Below are positions 19,645-26,870 of a stretch of DNA of 45,999 bases, one piece after another; the first letter of the stretch is position 1, and each line of letters begins with the position of its first letter. The DNA lies in NCBI GenBank assembly GCA_903873475.1, contig CAIQON010000284.1, forward strand, positions 1-45,999, given 5' to 3'. Both the position numbers and the translations under genes were made by a program. The DNA comes from an uncultured bacterium. Lineage in GTDB: Bacteria > Pseudomonadota > Gammaproteobacteria > Burkholderiales > CAIKXV01. The notes beneath the pieces are model-generated. The model ran no database searches. It was not told where the DNA came from and saw only the letters and a list, made by a program, of their open reading frames with translations.

Positions 19645-21780
19645 TCACTGGTCGCGCTCCCGCGGCTGTCCCTTCACGCGGACGATGCGCGCCACCTCGG
19701 GGATCAGTCGCAGCCGTTTCATGATCTGCGCCAGGTGGAAGCGGTTGGTCACCTGCAGCGTGAAGTTCATCGTCGAATAGGCGCTGGAGTCGGACTGCTC
19801 GACGCTGACGTTGTCGATGTTCGACCCCGCTTCGGCGATGCCGCCGGCCACGCGTGCGAGAACCCCGCGCTCGTTCGCCACCGACAGTCGGATGTTCACG
19901 AGGAACGTGCGGCGTGTCTTGTCGTCCCATTGCACGTCGACCCAGCGGTCGGATTCATGCCGGCTCTTGCGGATCACCGGGCAGTCCTGGGTGTGGATCA
20001 CGATGCCCTGGCCCTTGCTGACCAGGCCGATCACCGGGTCGCCCGGGATCGGGTTGCAGCAGCGCGCCAGCTGCGCGGCCATGCCCTCGGTGCCGCGGAT
20101 CAGGATGGTGCCCGGCATCTGCTGCTCTGACGGGGCGATGCCCGATCGCTGCAGCAGGCTGGCGGCGACCACGGCGGCGAGCCGCTTGCCCAACCCGATA
20201 TCGGCGTGCAGTTCCGACTTGCTCTTCGCGCCCGACTCGCGCAGGTACTTGTCCCAGCTGTCGGCGCCGATCTCCGCCGGCGTACCCTTGAGCGTAGCCA
20301 GTGCCTGGTTCAGCAGCCGCTCGCCGAGCAGCACCGACTCCTCGAGCTGCATGGTCTTGAGGACGTGCCGGATCTGCGAGCGCGCGCGCGCGGTGGCGAC
20401 GAAATTGAGCCAGGCCGGGTTCGGCCGCGCCTGTACCGCGATGATGATGTCCACGCGGTCGCCGTTCTTCAGCTCCGTGCGCAGCGGCATCAGCTCGTCG
20501 TTGATCTTCACCGCGATCGCGCGGTTGCCGATGTCCGTGTGCACGAAGTACGCGAAGTCGACCGCTGTCGCGCCGCGCGGCAGCGCCATGATCTTGCCCT
20601 TCGGCGTGAACACGTACACCTCGTCGGGGAACAGGTCGACCTTCAGGTGTTCCAGGAACTCGACCGCGGTGCCCGAGGTGGTCTGCAGTTCGAGCAGGCT
20701 CTGCAGCCACTGGTGGGTCTTCTGGTGCAACTCGTTCAGGTCGGCGTCGGAGGTCTTGTACAGCCAGTGCGAGGCCACGCCGGCCTCGGCGATCTTGTGC
20801 ATCTCGTGCGTCCGGATCTGCACTTCCAGGGGCATGCCGAACGGGCCGAACAGCGTCGTGTGCAGCGACTGGTAGCCGTTCGCCTTCGGGATCGCGATGT
20901 AGTCCTTGAACTTGCCCGGGAAGGGCTTGTAGAGGCCGTGCAGGATGCCCAGCGTCACGTAGCAGGACGGCACGTCTTTCACGATCACGCGGAAGCCGTA
21001 GATGTCCTGAACCTGCGCGAACGACAGTTGCTTCTCGAGCATCTTGTTGTAGATCGAGTGCAGGTGCTTCTCGCGCCCGGTGACCGCTGCGTCGATGCCG
21101 CCCTCCTTGAGTCGCGCGAGGATCGCGTCGAGCACCTTGCCGACCACTTCGCGGCGGTTTCCGCGCGAGGTCTTGAGCGCCTTGGAAAGCACCCGGTACC
21201 GTGTCGGGTGCAGGTAGCGGAACGACAGGTCTTCCAGTTCCTGGTAGATGCTGTTGAGCCCCAGCCGGTTGGCTATGGGCGCGTAGATGTCGAGCGTCTC
21301 GCGCGCGATGCGCTTCTTGCGTGCCGGATCCATCACCTGCATCGTGCGCATGTTGTGCAGGCGATCGGCGAGCTTGATCAGGATCACGCGCACGTCGCGC
21401 GCCATCGCCAGCAGCATCTTGCGGAAATTCTCGGCCTGGAAGTCTTCCTTGCTCTGGAACTCGATCGCGTCGATCTTCGACACGCCGTCTACCAGTTCGG
21501 CGACCGGCTTGCCGAACGATTCGGCGATCTCCTCCTTCGTGACGGCCGTGTCCTCCATCACGTCGTGCAGGAGAGCGGCGGTCAGCGCCTGCGGATCGAG
21601 GTGCCACTGGGCCAGGATCTTCGCGACCGCGAGCGGATGCGAGATATAGGGTTCGCCGCTCTTGCGGAACTGCCCGTGGTGCGCGGCCTCGCTGAATGCG
21701 TAGGCGCGTTGCAGCCTGGAAACGTCGTCTGCCTTGAGGTAGGACGTGAGGTCCTTGAACAGCAGTTCGGATTCGAGCAT
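19645..21780 (-). CDS. spoT: bifunctional (p)ppGpp synthetase/hydrolase (RSH, SpoT type)
   Basis: The 711-residue RelA/SpoT homologue makes and degrades the alarmone (p)ppGpp. The domains are in standard order. The hydrolase domain has HDVMED (His72/Asp73) and KLADRLHNMRT. The synthetase domain has GREKHLHSIYNKM, KDYIAIPKANGYQSLHTT and EVQIRT. A TGS domain (VYVFTPKGKIMALPRGATAVDFAY), a Cys-containing linker (ARCCNPIPGD) and a C-terminal ACT domain follow. The synthetase segment reads KFKD where bifunctional enzymes have RXKD and monofunctional RelA has EXDD, and the hydrolase residues are intact, so both activities are expected. It lies downstream of rpoZ with a terminator-like hairpin between them, and a TauE permease follows after four bases. 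Confidence 0.97.
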   Translation of the reverse strand: MLESELLFKDLTSYLKADDVSRLQRAYAFSEAAHHGQFRKSGEPYISHPLAVAKILAQWHLDPQALTAALLHDVMEDTAVTKEEIAESFGKPVAELVDGVSKIDAIEFQSKEDFQAENFRKMLLAMARDVRVILIKLADRLHNMRTMQVMDPARKKRIARETLDIYAPIANRLGLNSIYQELEDLSFRYLHPTRYRVLSKALKTSRGNRREVVGKVLDAILARLKEGGIDAAVTGREKHLHSIYNKMLEKQLSFAQVQDIYGFRVIVKDVPSCYVTLGILHGLYKPFPGKFKDYIAIPKANGYQSLHTTLFGPFGMPLEVQIRTHEMHKIAEAGVASHWLYKTSDADLNELHQKTHQWLQSLLELQTTSGTAVEFLEHLKVDLFPDEVYVFTPKGKIMALPRGATAVDFAYFVHTDIGNRAIAVKINDELMPLRTELKNGDRVDIIIAVQARPNPAWLNFVATARARSQIRHVLKTMQLEESVLLGERLLNQALATLKGTPAEIGADSWDKYLRESGAKSKSELHADIGLGKRLAAVVAASLLQRSGIAPSEQQMPGTILIRGTEGMAAQLARCCNPIPGDPVIGLVSKGQGIVIHTQDCPVIRKSRHESDRWVDVQWDDKTRRTFLVNIRLSVANERGVLARVAGGIAEAGSNIDNVSVEQSDSSAYSTMNFTLQVTNRFHLAQIMKRLRLIPEVARIVRVKGQPRERDQ

Positions 21781-21830
21781 CAGCGCTGCAGCCCGGGTGG
21801 GTGGTTCATCGGCTTCGAGAGCCTACCAGA

Positions 21831-21871
21831 AAGCAAAACGCCGCCCGGGGCCTTCGCGGCGGGGCGGCGTT
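21831..21871 (-). terminator. Rho-independent terminator or attenuator between rpoZ and spoT
   Basis: On the minus strand AACGCCGCCC, a 15-base loop and GGGCGGCGTT form a perfect ten-pair stem, directly followed by TTGCTTTC, a short U-rich tail. It lies about 65 bp after the rpoZ stop and 50 bp before the RSH start. It is the best intrinsic terminator in the window. Complete termination would require a separate promoter for the RSH gene. Confidence 0.72.
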
Positions 21872-21938
21872 GCCGAGTGCGCCCGATGCGTGTCGCTGCA
21901 CGCACCAGGACCGGCGGGCGCGTGGCGCCCTGCACGGC

Positions 21939-22148
21939 TCAGGTATTCGGCGCGCGGTGCATGATGTCGAGGCTGATCTTGCCCATGGCGATCTCGCGCA
22001 GCGCGATCACCGTCGGCTTGTCCTTGTTTGCCTCGACCAGCGGCGTGGCGCCCATCGTCAACTGGCGTGCGCGGTAGGTGGCCGCGAGCGTGAGTTCGAA
22101 ACGGTTGGTGACCTGCTTGAGGGCGTCATCTACGGTGATACGGGCCAT
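21939..22148 (-). CDS. rpoZ: RNA polymerase omega subunit
   Basis: The 69-residue product begins [30 protein letters not shown], the canonical omega-subunit sequence. It continues with [19 protein letters not shown]. Omega helps assemble RNA polymerase and forms part of a ppGpp-binding site in proteobacteria. The gmk-rpoZ-spoT order is conserved and links the alarmone enzyme to one of its targets. It starts 45 bp after gmk. Length and motifs are normal. Confidence 0.97.
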
Positions 22149-22168
22149 GTGTAAATCTCCGGCAGCCT

Positions 22169-22185
22169 GGCGCGCGAGGCGCGCC
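22169..22185 (-). other. compact GC hairpin in the gmk-rpoZ gap
   Basis: GGCGCGC, loop GAG, GCGCGCC forms a perfect seven-pair hairpin within the 45-bp gap. There is no U-tract, so it is more likely a pause, processing or stability element than a terminator. Confidence 0.35.
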
Positions 22186-22193
22186 GGGCGGGT

Positions 22194-22802
22194 TCATCTG
22201 AGCGCTTGTATCAGCGCCTGGTGGCGTACGAGTTGCGCGGGACGCATCAGGCGGTGCGCGATCACGATGCTCTGCAGTTCGCGCGCAGCGGTGGCGAATA
22301 CCGAATTCACTATAACATAGTCGAATTCGCCGACATGGGCTATCTCGGCGCGCGCTGCCCTGACGCGGCGGGCGATCACCTCTTCGCTGTCCTGCCCGCG
22401 GCCGCGCAACCTCGACTCGAGCGCTTCGATCGACGGCGGCAGTATGAACACGCTCACCGCCTGCGGGTACAACTGCCGCACCTGCTGCGCACCCTGCCAG
22501 TCGATCTCGAGCACGATATCCTCGCCCGCCGCCAGCGCATCCAGCACCCAGGTTCGTCCGGTGCCGTAGCAGTTGCCGTGCACCCGCGCATGTTCGAGCA
22601 GGTCGTTCGACTCGATCATCCGCTCGAATTCGGGCATGGCCACGAAATGGTAATCGTGCCCGTCCGCCTCGCCCGGCCGAGGCGCGCGTGTCGTGTAGGA
22701 CACCGACTTGCGGACCGCCGGGTCGGCCGCGAGCAGCGCATTGACCAGCGAGGTCTTGCCCGCACCCGAAGGCGCGCTGACGACGAACAGGCAGCCGCTC
22801 AT
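22194..22802 (-). CDS. gmk: guanylate kinase
   Basis: Gmk phosphorylates GMP to GDP with ATP, in the cytoplasm. The 202-residue product starts MSGCLFVVSAPSGAGKTSLVNALL, with the P-loop at about residues 9-17. The GMP-binding region SYTTRAPRPGEADGHDYHFV and the lid region around RLRGRGQDSEEVIARRV follow. The start codon directly abuts the yicC stop with no gap, indicating co-translation in a yicC-gmk-rpoZ unit. Confidence 0.97.
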   Translation of the reverse strand: MSGCLFVVSAPSGAGKTSLVNALLAADPAVRKSVSYTTRAPRPGEADGHDYHFVAMPEFERMIESNDLLEHARVHGNCYGTGRTWVLDALAAGEDIVLEIDWQGAQQVRQLYPQAVSVFILPPSIEALESRLRGRGQDSEEVIARRVRAARAEIAHVGEFDYVIVNSVFATAARELQSIVIAHRLMRPAQLVRHQALIQALR

Positions 22803-23678
22803 CTATTCGACATTCTGGATCTGCTCGCGCATCTGCTCGATCAGCACCTTGAGCTCGATGGCGGCCTGGGTGGTGGCGGTATCGACCGATTTCGAGCCCA
22901 GCGTGTTGGATTCGCGGTTGAATTCCTGCATCAGGAAGTCGAGCCGCTTGCCGACCGCACCGCCGCGCGACAGCGTGCGCCGCAGTTCATCGACGTGGGC
23001 GCAGAGACGGGACAGTTCTTCCTCGACGTCGATCTTCGACGCGTACAGTACGAGTTCATGGGCGAGGCGATCCGGGTCGGCCGCGATGCCTGCATCGGCC
23101 AGCCGGGCCAGCAGCCGTTCGCGCTGTGCCGCGAGCAGCGCCGGGATGCGCGGCTTGACGTCGGCTACGATCGCCGCGACGCCGTCGGCACGCTCCAGGA
23201 TGAAGGCGCGCAACTTGTCGCCCTCGCGCTCGCGCGATGCGTTGAACTGCAACAGCGCCTCGTCGCACAGCCCGAGCACGATGTCGCGCAGCGCATCGCC
23301 GGCGAGCGCCTGGGTCACCAGCACGCCGGGCCAGCGCAGGATCTCCGCGACGCCCAGCGCGGGCGCACCCGGGGCTGCCGTGCGCACGGCGGTGGCCAGT
23401 TGCAGCAGGTTCGCCAGCGCGGCCGGATCGAGCGACCCCTGGGTGCCGCCGGTGCCCGCGGCGTTGATCGACATGCGGCATTCGACCTTGCCGCGTCCGA
23501 CCTTCGCCGCCACGCGCTCGCGCATCGGCTGCTCGAACGGCCGCAGTTCTTCCGGCATCCGGAACTGCAGGTCGAGGAAGCGGTTGTTCACCGCGCGCAA
23601 TTCGAGCGTGAACACGCCCTGCGGCAATTCGCGCGTGGCCACCGCGTAGCCGGTCATGCTGCTGATCTTGCCTGCCAT
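22803..23678 (-). CDS. yicC: YicC family endoribonuclease
   Basis: The 291-residue product starts MAGKISSMTGYAVATREL and ends ELKVLIEQMREQIQNVE, both characteristic of YicC. KIDVEEELSRLCAHVDELRRTL and GKRLDFLMQEFNRESNTLGSKS are further conserved blocks. The E. coli homologue has been described as an endoribonuclease or RNA-decay adaptor. I chose ATG 23678; the track ORF adds 25 residues without homology. A shorter start at 23657 (MTGYA) is also possible. It is the first gene of the leftward unit, and a candidate promoter lies just upstream. Confidence 0.93.
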   Translation of the reverse strand: MAGKISSMTGYAVATRELPQGVFTLELRAVNNRFLDLQFRMPEELRPFEQPMRERVAAKVGRGKVECRMSINAAGTGGTQGSLDPAALANLLQLATAVRTAAPGAPALGVAEILRWPGVLVTQALAGDALRDIVLGLCDEALLQFNASREREGDKLRAFILERADGVAAIVADVKPRIPALLAAQRERLLARLADAGIAADPDRLAHELVLYASKIDVEEELSRLCAHVDELRRTLSRGGAVGKRLDFLMQEFNRESNTLGSKSVDTATTQAAIELKVLIEQMREQIQNVE

Positions 23679-23712
23679 GGGTCTGCCTGGGATCTGCCTG
23701 TGTGTTTCGGGG

Positions 23713-23741
23713 GTTGTAACCGCGCACGCCAGCGCAGACAA
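23713..23741 (-). promoter_or_regulatory. candidate sigma70 promoter for yicC-gmk-rpoZ
   Basis: On the minus strand TTGTCT (23741-23736) and TACAAC (23718-23713) are separated by exactly 17 bp. Each matches its consensus at four of six positions. The predicted start would lie about 25-30 bp before yicC, in the gap shared with divergent rph. Confidence 0.4.
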
Positions 23742-23782
23742 TCCGCGCCTCATATCGACGATAGCACAGCGCCTGCCCCCCG

Positions 23783-24562
23783 ATGACCCAGCCCGCCAGC
23801 AATGCCACCGCCCCCGCCCCCGCGCTCACCCGGCCCAGCGGACGCGCGCCCTCCGCCCTGCGGCGCGTGACCCTCGAACGCGGCTTCACGCGCCATGCCG
23901 AGGGTTCGGTGCTGGTCACCGCCGGCGAGACCCGGGTGATCTGCACCGCCAGCATCGAAGAAGGCGTACCGTCGTTCCTGCGCGGCAAGGGGCAGGGCTG
24001 GATGACCGCCGAGTACGGCATGTTGCCGCGCTCGACGCACACGCGCATGGCGCGCGAAGCGGCGCGCGGCAAGCAGTCGGGTCGCACCCAGGAGATCCAG
24101 CGCCTGATCGGCCGGTCGCTGCGCGCGGCGGTCGACCTCACGGCGCTCGGCGAGCGCACCCTGCAGATCGACTGCGACGTGATCCAGGCCGATGGTGGCA
24201 CCCGCACCGCGAGCATCACGGGCGCCTTCGTCGCGGTACACGATGCGTTGTCCGGGCTGGTCCGACAGGGCCTGATACCGGCGCTGCCGATCCGCGACCA
24301 TGTCGCGGCGGTGTCGGTCGGCGTCTGGCACGGCATGCCGGTGCTCGACCTCGACTACGCTGAAGACTCCGACTGCGACACCGACATGAACGTGGTGATG
24401 AACGGCAGCGGCGGCTTCATCGAGGTACAGGGCACGGCAGAGGGCGAAGCCTTCTCGCGCGAGGAGATGGACGCGCTGCTGGCGCTGGCGCAGAAGGGCA
24501 TCGCGGAACTGGTCGAGTTGCAGAAGCAGGTGTTGTCCACCCCGGCTGCGGGCGGTGCCTGA
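23783..24562 (+). CDS. rph: ribonuclease PH
   Basis: RNase PH is a phosphorolytic 3'-5' exoribonuclease that trims tRNA 3' ends. The 259-residue product contains [39 protein letters not shown] and [20 protein letters not shown], both diagnostic, and [19 protein letters not shown] with the acidic metal-site residues. A leader of about 18 residues rich in Ala and Pro precedes the conserved start. No clear ribosome-binding site is visible. It overlaps rdgB by eight bases. Confidence 0.97.
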
Positions 24563-25172
24563 AGTGGCGTCCGGGAACGCGCGTACACGCCTGGTGATCG
24601 CCAGCGGCAATGCCGGCAAGCTGCGCGAGATCGACCACATTCTCGCGCCGCTGAACTTCGAGGTGATCCCGCAGGGCGCGCTGGGAGTGACCGAGGCGCC
24701 CGAGCCGTACTGCACCTTCATCGAGAATGCGCTGGCCAAGGCGCGCCACGCCTCGGCGTCGACCGGGCTGCCGGCGCTCGCCGACGATTCCGGCATCTGC
24801 GTCCCGGCACTGGGCGGGGCGCCCGGCGTGCATTCCGCGCGCTATGCCGGCGAGCCGAAGTCGGATGCACGCAACAACGAGAAACTCGTTGCCGCGCTCG
24901 ACGGCATCGCCGACCGGCGCGCACACTACTGCTGCGTGATCGTGGTGGTGCGCTCGGCCGATGATCCGCAGCCGCTGATCGGCGAAGGTGTCTGGGCTGG
25001 CGAAGTCGCCCGGGCGCCGGCCGGAGAAGGCGGCTTCGGCTACGATCCGTGGTTCCTGATTCCCTCGGCCGGGCTGACCGCCGCACAGATGCCGGCGGAA
25101 CGGAAGAACCGGATCAGCCACCGGGCGATGGCGCTGGCGAGCATCGCCGGGAAGCTGCGCTCGGATTTCTGA
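24555..25172 (+). CDS. rdgB: XTP/dITP diphosphatase (non-canonical purine NTPase)
   Basis: The enzyme removes ITP, dITP and XTP from nucleotide pools. The 205-residue product has [18 protein letters not shown] at the N-terminus, [25 protein letters not shown], and [11 protein letters not shown] with RISHRAMAL, the standard HAM1/RdgB motifs. The start is GTG 24555, inside the end of rph. The rph-rdgB pair is widespread. In many betaproteobacteria hemW follows, but here a NYN-domain gene takes that place. Confidence 0.96.
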
Positions 25173-25223: not shown

Positions 25224-25245
25224 GACCCCACATTAGGACATGTCG

Positions 25246-26745
25246 ATGGCGAGCCAGACCGAAATCACCAACATGGCCGTGTTCTGCGATTTCGAGAACG
25301 TGGCCCTCGGCGTGCGTGACGCCAACTACGCCAAGTTCGACATCGACAAGGTGCTCGAGCGGCTGCTGCTCAAGGGCAACATCGTGGTGCGCAAGGCGTA
25401 CTGCGACTGGGACCGGTACAAACAGTTCAAGCGCTCGATGCACGAGGCTTCGTTCGAACTGATCGAGATCCCGCATGTACGCCAGTCGGGCAAGAACTCC
25501 GCCGACATCCGGATGGTCGTCGATGCGCTCGACCTCTGCTACACGAAGGCCCACCTCGATACCTTCGTGCTGCTCACCGGTGATTCCGACTTCTCGCCGC
25601 TGGTGGCCAAGCTGCGCGAGAACGCGAAGACGGTGATCGGCGTCGGGGTCAAGCAGTCGACCTCCGACCTCCTGATCAACATCTGCGACGAATTCATCTA
25701 TTACGACGACCTGGTGCGCGAGCAGTTGCCTGGCCGCGGCGGCGTGCCGCGTGGCCGTACCGGCACCTCGCGCCGCTCGGGCTCGGCGCGGCCCGACGGC
25801 AACGGCCACGCGGTGCAGCCGATGGTCGGTCCGCCGCTCCCGCTGCACGAGTCGCTGCGCGGTCCGGCACGTGGTGCCCCGCGCGAGCGCAATGTCGATG
25901 CCGGTTCGCGCGAAGCGCCCGGTGAATCTGCCACCGACTCGGCAGTCGGCGCCCTGATGCCTGCCGCTGAGCCGACGGTGCGGCCGGTGGCCGAAGCGAC
26001 CCTCGTCCCGGCTGAAGGCGCGGGTATCGACGACCGTACACTGCCAGCCGCTGAAGGCGAAGCGGGCGCCGGGCCCGCGCCGCGCGGCCGGGCCCGCGCG
26101 AAGAGCACGCGTACCCGGGCCGGCTCGCGCCGCGGGTCGGCTGCGCCTGCCGTGGACGAGAACGCCACCGCGGCGGAGGCTGCCGAGGCCGAACCGGCAC
26201 TCGTCGTGACGGTCAGCGGTGCAGGGGCATCCGAGTCGACCGTGGTGCCGGCCGACGAGGCCGTGGTGGCGGAAGCGCCCGCGCCGACTGCGAAGGGGCG
26301 CGCCCGCCGCCCGCGGGCTGGCAGCAAGGCTGCACTGGCGGCTGCCGCGAAGCTCGCCGAGGCCGAGGCGGAGGCCGCAGCCGAAGCGGCGGCGCAGCCA
26401 TCGGCCGTCACGGGCAGCGAACTCGCCGAGGCGGGTACCAATCCGGCAGCCATCCACCCGGCCGATCCGGTCAGCGATGGTTCCGACAAGGCGCAGCAGG
26501 CAATCGACCTGGTCCTGGCCACGGTCGAGGCACTGGTGGCCGAACGTGGCGAGGAAGAACGCATCTGGGGCTCGATGGTCAAGCAGACGCTGAAGCGGCG
26601 CAATCCGGGCTTCAACGAGTCGTACTACGGCTTCCGCTCGTTCAGCGAACTGCTCGAGGAGGCCCAGGCCCGCCGGCTGCTCGAACTCACCCGCGACGAG
26701 AAGTCGGGCGGATTCATCCTGCGCCTGACCCATCACGACGACTGA
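25246..26745 (+). CDS. NYN-domain (PIN-like) ribonuclease with C-terminal OST-HTH/LOTUS-like domain
   Basis: The 499-residue product has three parts. Residues 9-160 are a LabA-like NYN domain of the PIN nuclease fold, with acidic metal-site residues in FCDFEN (Asp15), SADIRMVVDAL (Asp87) and LLTGDSDFSPLV (Asp113/Asp115). Residues about 162-415 are a disordered Ala/Glu/Pro/Arg linker with basic RGRARAKSTRTRAGSRRG-type patches. Residues about 425-499 (IWGSMVKQTLKRRNPGFNESYYGFRSFSELLEEAQ) resemble an OST-HTH/LOTUS winged helix, an RNA-binding module. I chose ATG 25246 because AGGA is seven bases upstream; the track's ATG at 25240 is one base from it. RNA cleavage or RNA-linked regulation is inferred; the target is unknown. 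Confidence 0.85.
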   Translation: MASQTEITNMAVFCDFENVALGVRDANYAKFDIDKVLERLLLKGNIVVRKAYCDWDRYKQFKRSMHEASFELIEIPHVRQSGKNSADIRMVVDALDLCYTKAHLDTFVLLTGDSDFSPLVAKLRENAKTVIGVGVKQSTSDLLINICDEFIYYDDLVREQLPGRGGVPRGRTGTSRRSGSARPDGNGHAVQPMVGPPLPLHESLRGPARGAPRERNVDAGSREAPGESATDSAVGALMPAAEPTVRPVAEATLVPAEGAGIDDRTLPAAEGEAGAGPAPRGRARAKSTRTRAGSRRGSAAPAVDENATAAEAAEAEPALVVTVSGAGASESTVVPADEAVVAEAPAPTAKGRARRPRAGSKAALAAAAKLAEAEAEAAAEAAAQPSAVTGSELAEAGTNPAAIHPADPVSDGSDKAQQAIDLVLATVEALVAERGEEERIWGSMVKQTLKRRNPGFNESYYGFRSFSELLEEAQARRLLELTRDEKSGGFILRLTHHDD

Positions 26746-26812
26746 CGTCCCGACAACTGACGTCTGCACAACTGACGTCCGGACAACTGACGTCTGCACA
26801 ACTGACGTCCGG
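26738..26812. repeat. five-copy 15-bp tandem repeat overlapping the NYN gene's stop
   Basis: Five contiguous 15-base units run from 26738 to 26812: one divergent ACGACTGACGTCCCG, then ACAACTGACGTCTGC and ACAACTGACGTCCGG twice in alternation. This gives a 30-bp higher-order period. Each unit contains the palindrome GACGTC. The stop codon TGA of the NYN gene (26743-26745) lies in the first unit. The CoA-transferase gene starts 58 bp after the array. Confidence 0.93.
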
Positions 26813-26870
26813 ACGACCTGCGCGCGGTTACCATCCCCGCCTCGGAATACATCGAAGAAAAGGGGGGGAG

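Follow-up and report, generated by a model that had tools for sequence, protein, structure and literature searches.

A NYN-LOTUS protein of Burkholderiales with conserved islands in its long disordered linker: a probable stand-alone endoribonuclease

What does a bacterial protein do that joins an NYN nuclease domain to a LOTUS winged helix through about 250 residues of predicted disorder, and does the long connection itself contribute to that function? The question is raised by a gene in the window (the whole stretch of 45,999 nucleotides from an uncultured Burkholderiales bacterium that was analysed here; Table 1). We consider it likely, judging from sequence and predicted structure, that the product belongs to the bacterial NYN(DUF88)+OST-HTH family and works as a stand-alone, metal-dependent endoribonuclease, with the LOTUS domain and islands in the linker aiming it at RNA in decay or quality control.

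Table 1. Features of the NYN-LOTUS gene, with positions in the window. dN/dS values of the islands are biased low because the island windows were picked by eye on the same sequences.
Feature	Position	Strand	Basis
NYN-LOTUS gene	25246..26745	+	ORF, 499 aa, ATG 25246 to stop 26745; sole NYN gene in the genome
NYN (PIN-like) nuclease domain, residues 9-157	25270..25716	+	Pfam, AlphaFold, Foldseek, dN/dS 0.05
Asp15, predicted metal-site residue	25288..25290	+	aligns with VPA0982 D14 / MARF1 D358
Asp87, predicted metal-site residue	25504..25506	+	aligns with VPA0982 D92 / MARF1 D426
Asp113, predicted metal-site residue	25582..25584	+	aligns with VPA0982 D115 / MARF1 D452
Predicted disordered linker, residues 160-411, Ala/Gly/Pro/Arg/Glu-rich	25723..26478	+	AlphaFold pLDDT, dN/dS 0.30
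Island 1, residues 185-210, GNGHAVQPMVGPPLPLHESLRGPARG	25798..25875	+	dN/dS about 0.11
Basic island 2, residues 278-299, APRGRARAKSTRTRAGSRRGSA	26077..26142	+	dN/dS about 0.06
Island 3, residues 349-381, basic KGRARRPRAGSK then predicted helix 361-379	26290..26388	+	dN/dS about 0.12
Island 4, residues 401-425, running into LOTUS helix 1	26446..26520	+	dN/dS about 0.02
OST-HTH/LOTUS winged-helix domain, residues 412-494	26479..26727	+	Pfam, profile match 2kpm, AlphaFold

A second possible ATG lies upstream of the start given in Table 1, at position 25240. The downstream codon is preferred because the AGGA at 25235-25238 is well placed for it, with a spacing of 7 nt that suits 25246 better than 25240. 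No promoter or terminator sites were found where these were looked for around the gene. At the stop codon starts a 15-bp tandem repeat (GACAACTGACGTCCG, about five copies, 26737-26814), each copy of which holds an in-frame TGA owing to the period and in which the palindrome GACGTC recurs. The pattern used in the search was not found elsewhere in the same genome. An array of similar units (14-16 bp) occupies the equivalent place in genome G002, and no array follows the stop of the gene in G005, G007 or G009.

The combination of NYN and OST-HTH domains is not new. OST-HTH was named in 2010, when the bacterial NYN(DUF88)+OST-HTH architecture was also described (Anantharaman, Zhang and Aravind, PMC2848206), and the bacterial proteins, which were found without conserved neighbours, were proposed to be stand-alone RNA-degradation enzymes (PMC2848206). 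The protein studied here is of this kind: it shares with them the N-terminal NYN domain, the C-terminal OST-HTH domain, the lack of a widely conserved neighbour and the prediction as a stand-alone RNase, and it differs in having a linker of about 250 residues with four conserved islands where theirs spans about 30-50.

The N-terminal NYN domain, already recognised in the original prediction, is confirmed by a profile match to PF01936 (131 bits against a cut-off of 24.2, E 5e-38, residues 10-153) and by the AlphaFold model, in which residues 9-157 form an ordered domain with pLDDT mostly above 90. Foldseek agrees, with 2qip (VPA0982 of Vibrio parahaemolyticus, E 9e-12) and the NYN domain of MARF1 (E 2e-8) as the best fold matches. 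VPA0982 is the closest solved NYN domain and has the acidic triad in common with the protein here, from which it differs in that the solved chain consists of the NYN domain without linker or LOTUS. The protein is not a member of the TIGR00288 NYN family, for which it scores 37.3 bits against the required 178.45.

The acidic metal-site residues said to be kept are indeed in place: Asp15 and Asp113, with Asp87 between them, map in that sequence order on residues named as catalytic in VPA0982 (D14/D92/D115) and MARF1 (D358/D426/D452) (PMC11346440, PMC6294520). All three are without variation in 45 sequences, including some at just 25-29% identity. Replacement of such aspartates, by D13A in a CRISPR-associated NYN protein (PMC11346440) and by D426A/D427A in MARF1 (PMC6294520), abolished or strongly reduced cleavage. 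By homology, the NYN domain would bind a divalent metal via D15, D87 and D113 and cut RNA.

The assignment of the C-terminal 75 residues to a LOTUS-like domain also stands. Within the full-length protein the match to PF12872 falls just below the cut-off of 23.8 bits (22.9 bits, E 7.7e-5, residues 429-473), and it rises to 27.3 bits when residues 415-499 are scanned alone; the same model is matched by 49 of 50 homologous C-terminal segments. LOTUS domains of bacteria have been solved as 2kpm (NE0665) and 2kzv (CV_0373), and a profile built from the homologous C-terminal segments finds a distant likeness to the former (E 1.1e-5). In the AlphaFold model residues 412-494 fold into an ordered winged helix (pLDDT 86) with the element order H-H-H-H-E-E, and the conserved basic residues K446, R451 and R452 correspond to the near-invariant K32/R37/R38 of alignment A2. 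Searched with the LOTUS domain alone, Foldseek returned generic winged helices without any match at E 0.001 or below, although TDRD7, Oskar and bacterial LOTUS structures were within the best 50 matches; the name LOTUS thus rests mainly on the sequence profile. The top profile match of the LOTUS alignment, S100-A4, was judged to be chance, as it consists of two 13.8-bit repeats in a chimeric construct.

The C-terminal helical extension of eLOTUS domains is absent from the model, which ends with strand 490-494 and five residues; bacterial LOTUS domains lack this Vasa-binding extension (PMC5458760). The eLOTUS domain of Oskar did not bind RNA in one study (PMC5458760), and binding of G-quadruplex RNA is reported for LOTUS domains, bacterial ones included (Ding et al. 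2020, as cited in PMC12247748). In the protein studied here the winged helix would bind the substrate, perhaps a structured or G-rich RNA.

Between these two domains, the disordered linker of about 250 residues proposed originally is borne out by a low-confidence stretch of that length in the AlphaFold model, with pLDDT about 45-55 apart from the single helix 361-379. It is not net basic as had been supposed, with 29 K/R against 34 D/E; instead, the charge gathers in basic islands beyond what is seen in shuffled sequences (P < 0.001). Nor is it a mere stretch of low complexity, since four islands in it are conserved. Across five complete long-linker orthologues dN/dS is 0.30 for the linker overall, compared to 0.05 for the NYN and LOTUS domains and 0.02-0.12 for the islands, the last values being biased low by the choice of windows. 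Despite that choice, the contrast between islands and linker is still seen as blocks of identity.

It is possible, if doubtful, that no specific function attaches to the long linker, which would then be a drifting, GC-rich, low-complexity sequence that needs only to be flexible. This explanation opposes the linker part of our reading alone and fits an RNase reading of the whole protein. Linker length and most of the linker sequence do vary freely within the genus (248-261 residues in five complete genes and about 269 in a sixth that is cut by a contig end), the sister species G004 and G001 cope with only about 90 and 75 residues, and disordered tails of like composition are common in relatives. 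Against it stand the four slowly changing islands, one of which, a Pro/hydrophobic motif, stands out in composition from the sequence around it. The 90-residue linker of G004 gave no BLAST alignment to the long linker. Island 1 is present in seven genomes, all of this genus, in a scan that covered 300 genomes from the order; its own genome yielded no second copy. Weak matches to it in G140 and G209 were judged to be chance, as the regions are plainly other genes. The linker with its conserved islands is a lineage-specific addition and, as the substitution rates indicate, under selection, and the four islands under purifying selection in this genus, two of them Arg/Lys-rich, are new.

In this genus the flexible linker would tether the NYN domain to the LOTUS domain, and its islands may hold RNA or partner proteins. 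The two islands rich in Arg and Lys would strengthen RNA binding, and the Pro/hydrophobic island (QPMVGPPLPLHESL) would serve as docking site for a partner protein; the enzyme could then act over some distance along a transcript that it holds, or work as part of a larger decay complex. Known nucleases offer two comparisons. RNase E carries a C-terminal scaffold, a disordered region with Arg-rich and partner-binding short motifs. The likeness lies in a disordered region with Arg-rich islands and is an analogy only, the nucleases being unrelated. MARF1 (limkain b1) of animals, an endoribonuclease that degrades mRNA (PMC6294520), has an NYN active site (6fdl, 5yaa) that is likewise joined to LOTUS domains; these are numerous and accompanied by RRMs, and MARF1 docks on the decapping complex, whereas the protein here has one LOTUS domain and, by Pfam, no RRM. 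A more specific proposal, which we put forward tentatively and hold to be on the whole unlikely, is that the linker is a docking scaffold in this genus, with island 1 binding an RNA-decay or translation component and the basic islands holding RNA. The protein would then be a counterpart in bacteria of MARF1 or of the RNase E scaffold, with relatives carrying such a scaffold after the LOTUS domain.

At least 474 confirmed relatives occur in the bacterial genomes scanned, and the best 80 of these were kept. Among the matches listed most are from Betaproteobacteria, with some from Gammaproteobacteria and Desulfobacterales, one from Holophagales and one from a Bacteriovorax MAG, the last ones being open to MAG binning errors. 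With a threshold of E 1e-50, 117 of 300 genomes in the order and 39 of 274 in the class carry the NYN domain, as a single copy in each, and these matches are at least 73% identical apart from two at 64%, so that presence or absence is nearly all-or-nothing. Compared to RNase PH in the 11 genomes from other families of the same order that allowed both proteins to be compared, NYN is about 9 points more identical on average (73-85% against 67-75%) and is the more identical of the two in 10 of the 11. When this genome is set against G002 or G005, the NYN domain shows no amino-acid change (dN 0.000, dS about 0.25). The low synonymous divergence is not a strong signal in its own right, as rdgB and the CoA transferase have similar or somewhat higher dS. 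As far as these comparisons show, what is new is a subfamily, single-copy and patchy in distribution, with an NYN domain that is on average some 9 points more identical between families than RNase PH.

Also new is that disordered extensions differ in place within the subfamily: one large clade has a tail at the C-terminus, and several other clades have enlarged linkers. In compact relatives NYN and LOTUS are about 30-50 residues apart. In the large clade, which includes Oxalobacteraceae, Burkholderiaceae, Zoogloeaceae and others, the LOTUS domain is instead followed by 118-412 residues. Mapped on the tree, the long-linker label requires seven changes, at least six of them on starred branches, whereas two suffice for the long-tail label. 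The post-LOTUS tails at L020, L068, L073 and 39 other loci are rich in Ala, Arg, Pro and Glu, are predicted to be disordered and contain RG-rich stretches such as RRGRGRGR. Several order members without the subfamily (L105-L111) encode a distant NYN protein of about 30% identity, with a C-terminus that is 2kpm-like where examined, and these proteins are probably a separate bacterial NYN-LOTUS lineage.

The patchy spread bears on a second alternative, since it suits a dispensable regulator better than a component of core decay. The protein might thus serve regulation and not bulk RNA decay, acting, like LabA of cyanobacteria, on a single transcript or a handful of them within a narrow circuit, or even without catalysis. 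The LabA-like NYN profile does match, weakly (PADLOC, E 2.3e-8). A non-catalytic role would have no need of the three catalytic aspartates, yet these are invariant, and we hold regulation of either sort to be quite improbable.

The gene neighbourhood has less to say about function than the original prediction implied. Proximity to rph and yicC is real, but the order rph, rdgB, NYN-LOTUS gene, CoA transferase is kept across this genus wherever contigs allow a view, and neither rph nor rdgB lies beside the gene among the loci of other relatives with flanking sequence. In those other loci no neighbour recurs outside individual sublineages. The proximity to rph and yicC therefore carries little functional weight, and a functional link via the neighbourhood was rejected, the gene order being conserved in this genus only. 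The remark that the gene sits where hemW often follows rdgB was right: of 30 genomes from the order's other families, 18 have hemW at most about 4 kb from rph. This genus has hemW at other sites, for example 124 kb away in G005, and here the NYN-LOTUS gene comes after rdgB, which documents a local rearrangement and tells little on function. Within the window spoT, gmk, yicC, rph and rdgB are grouped at 19645-25172, and YicC is now an endoribonuclease family in Pfam.

That the protein is a defence nuclease damaging RNA upon phage infection, as is thought for some NYN proteins of CRISPR and defence islands, is very unlikely: the PADLOC NYN model matches and distant NYN relatives occur on phages and plasmids, but phage and most plasmid relatives are less than 60% identical, close relatives are on plasmid records of only a few Burkholderiales (Caballeronia, Eleftheria), the gene is single-copy at a fixed chromosomal locus in the genus with no adjoining defence genes, and its sequence is nearly frozen where defence genes usually change fast.

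The predicted stand-alone endoribonuclease is ordinary in kind. The literature searched contained no biochemical, genetic or functional study of this NYN-LOTUS subfamily and no role for any bacterial NYN-LOTUS protein. Eukaryotic LOTUS proteins, which organise germ granules and mRNA silencing, are thought to derive from bacterial ones (PMC2848206). This is a small subfamily with one copy per genome and a nearly frozen sequence. Since genera such as Duganella, Janthinobacterium and Thauera include cultured members, the substrate can be sought directly. Both folded domains are almost unchanged across Proteobacteria. The protein is a useful test case, and its islands are exact deletion targets for learning what disordered regions contribute to a bacterial nuclease.
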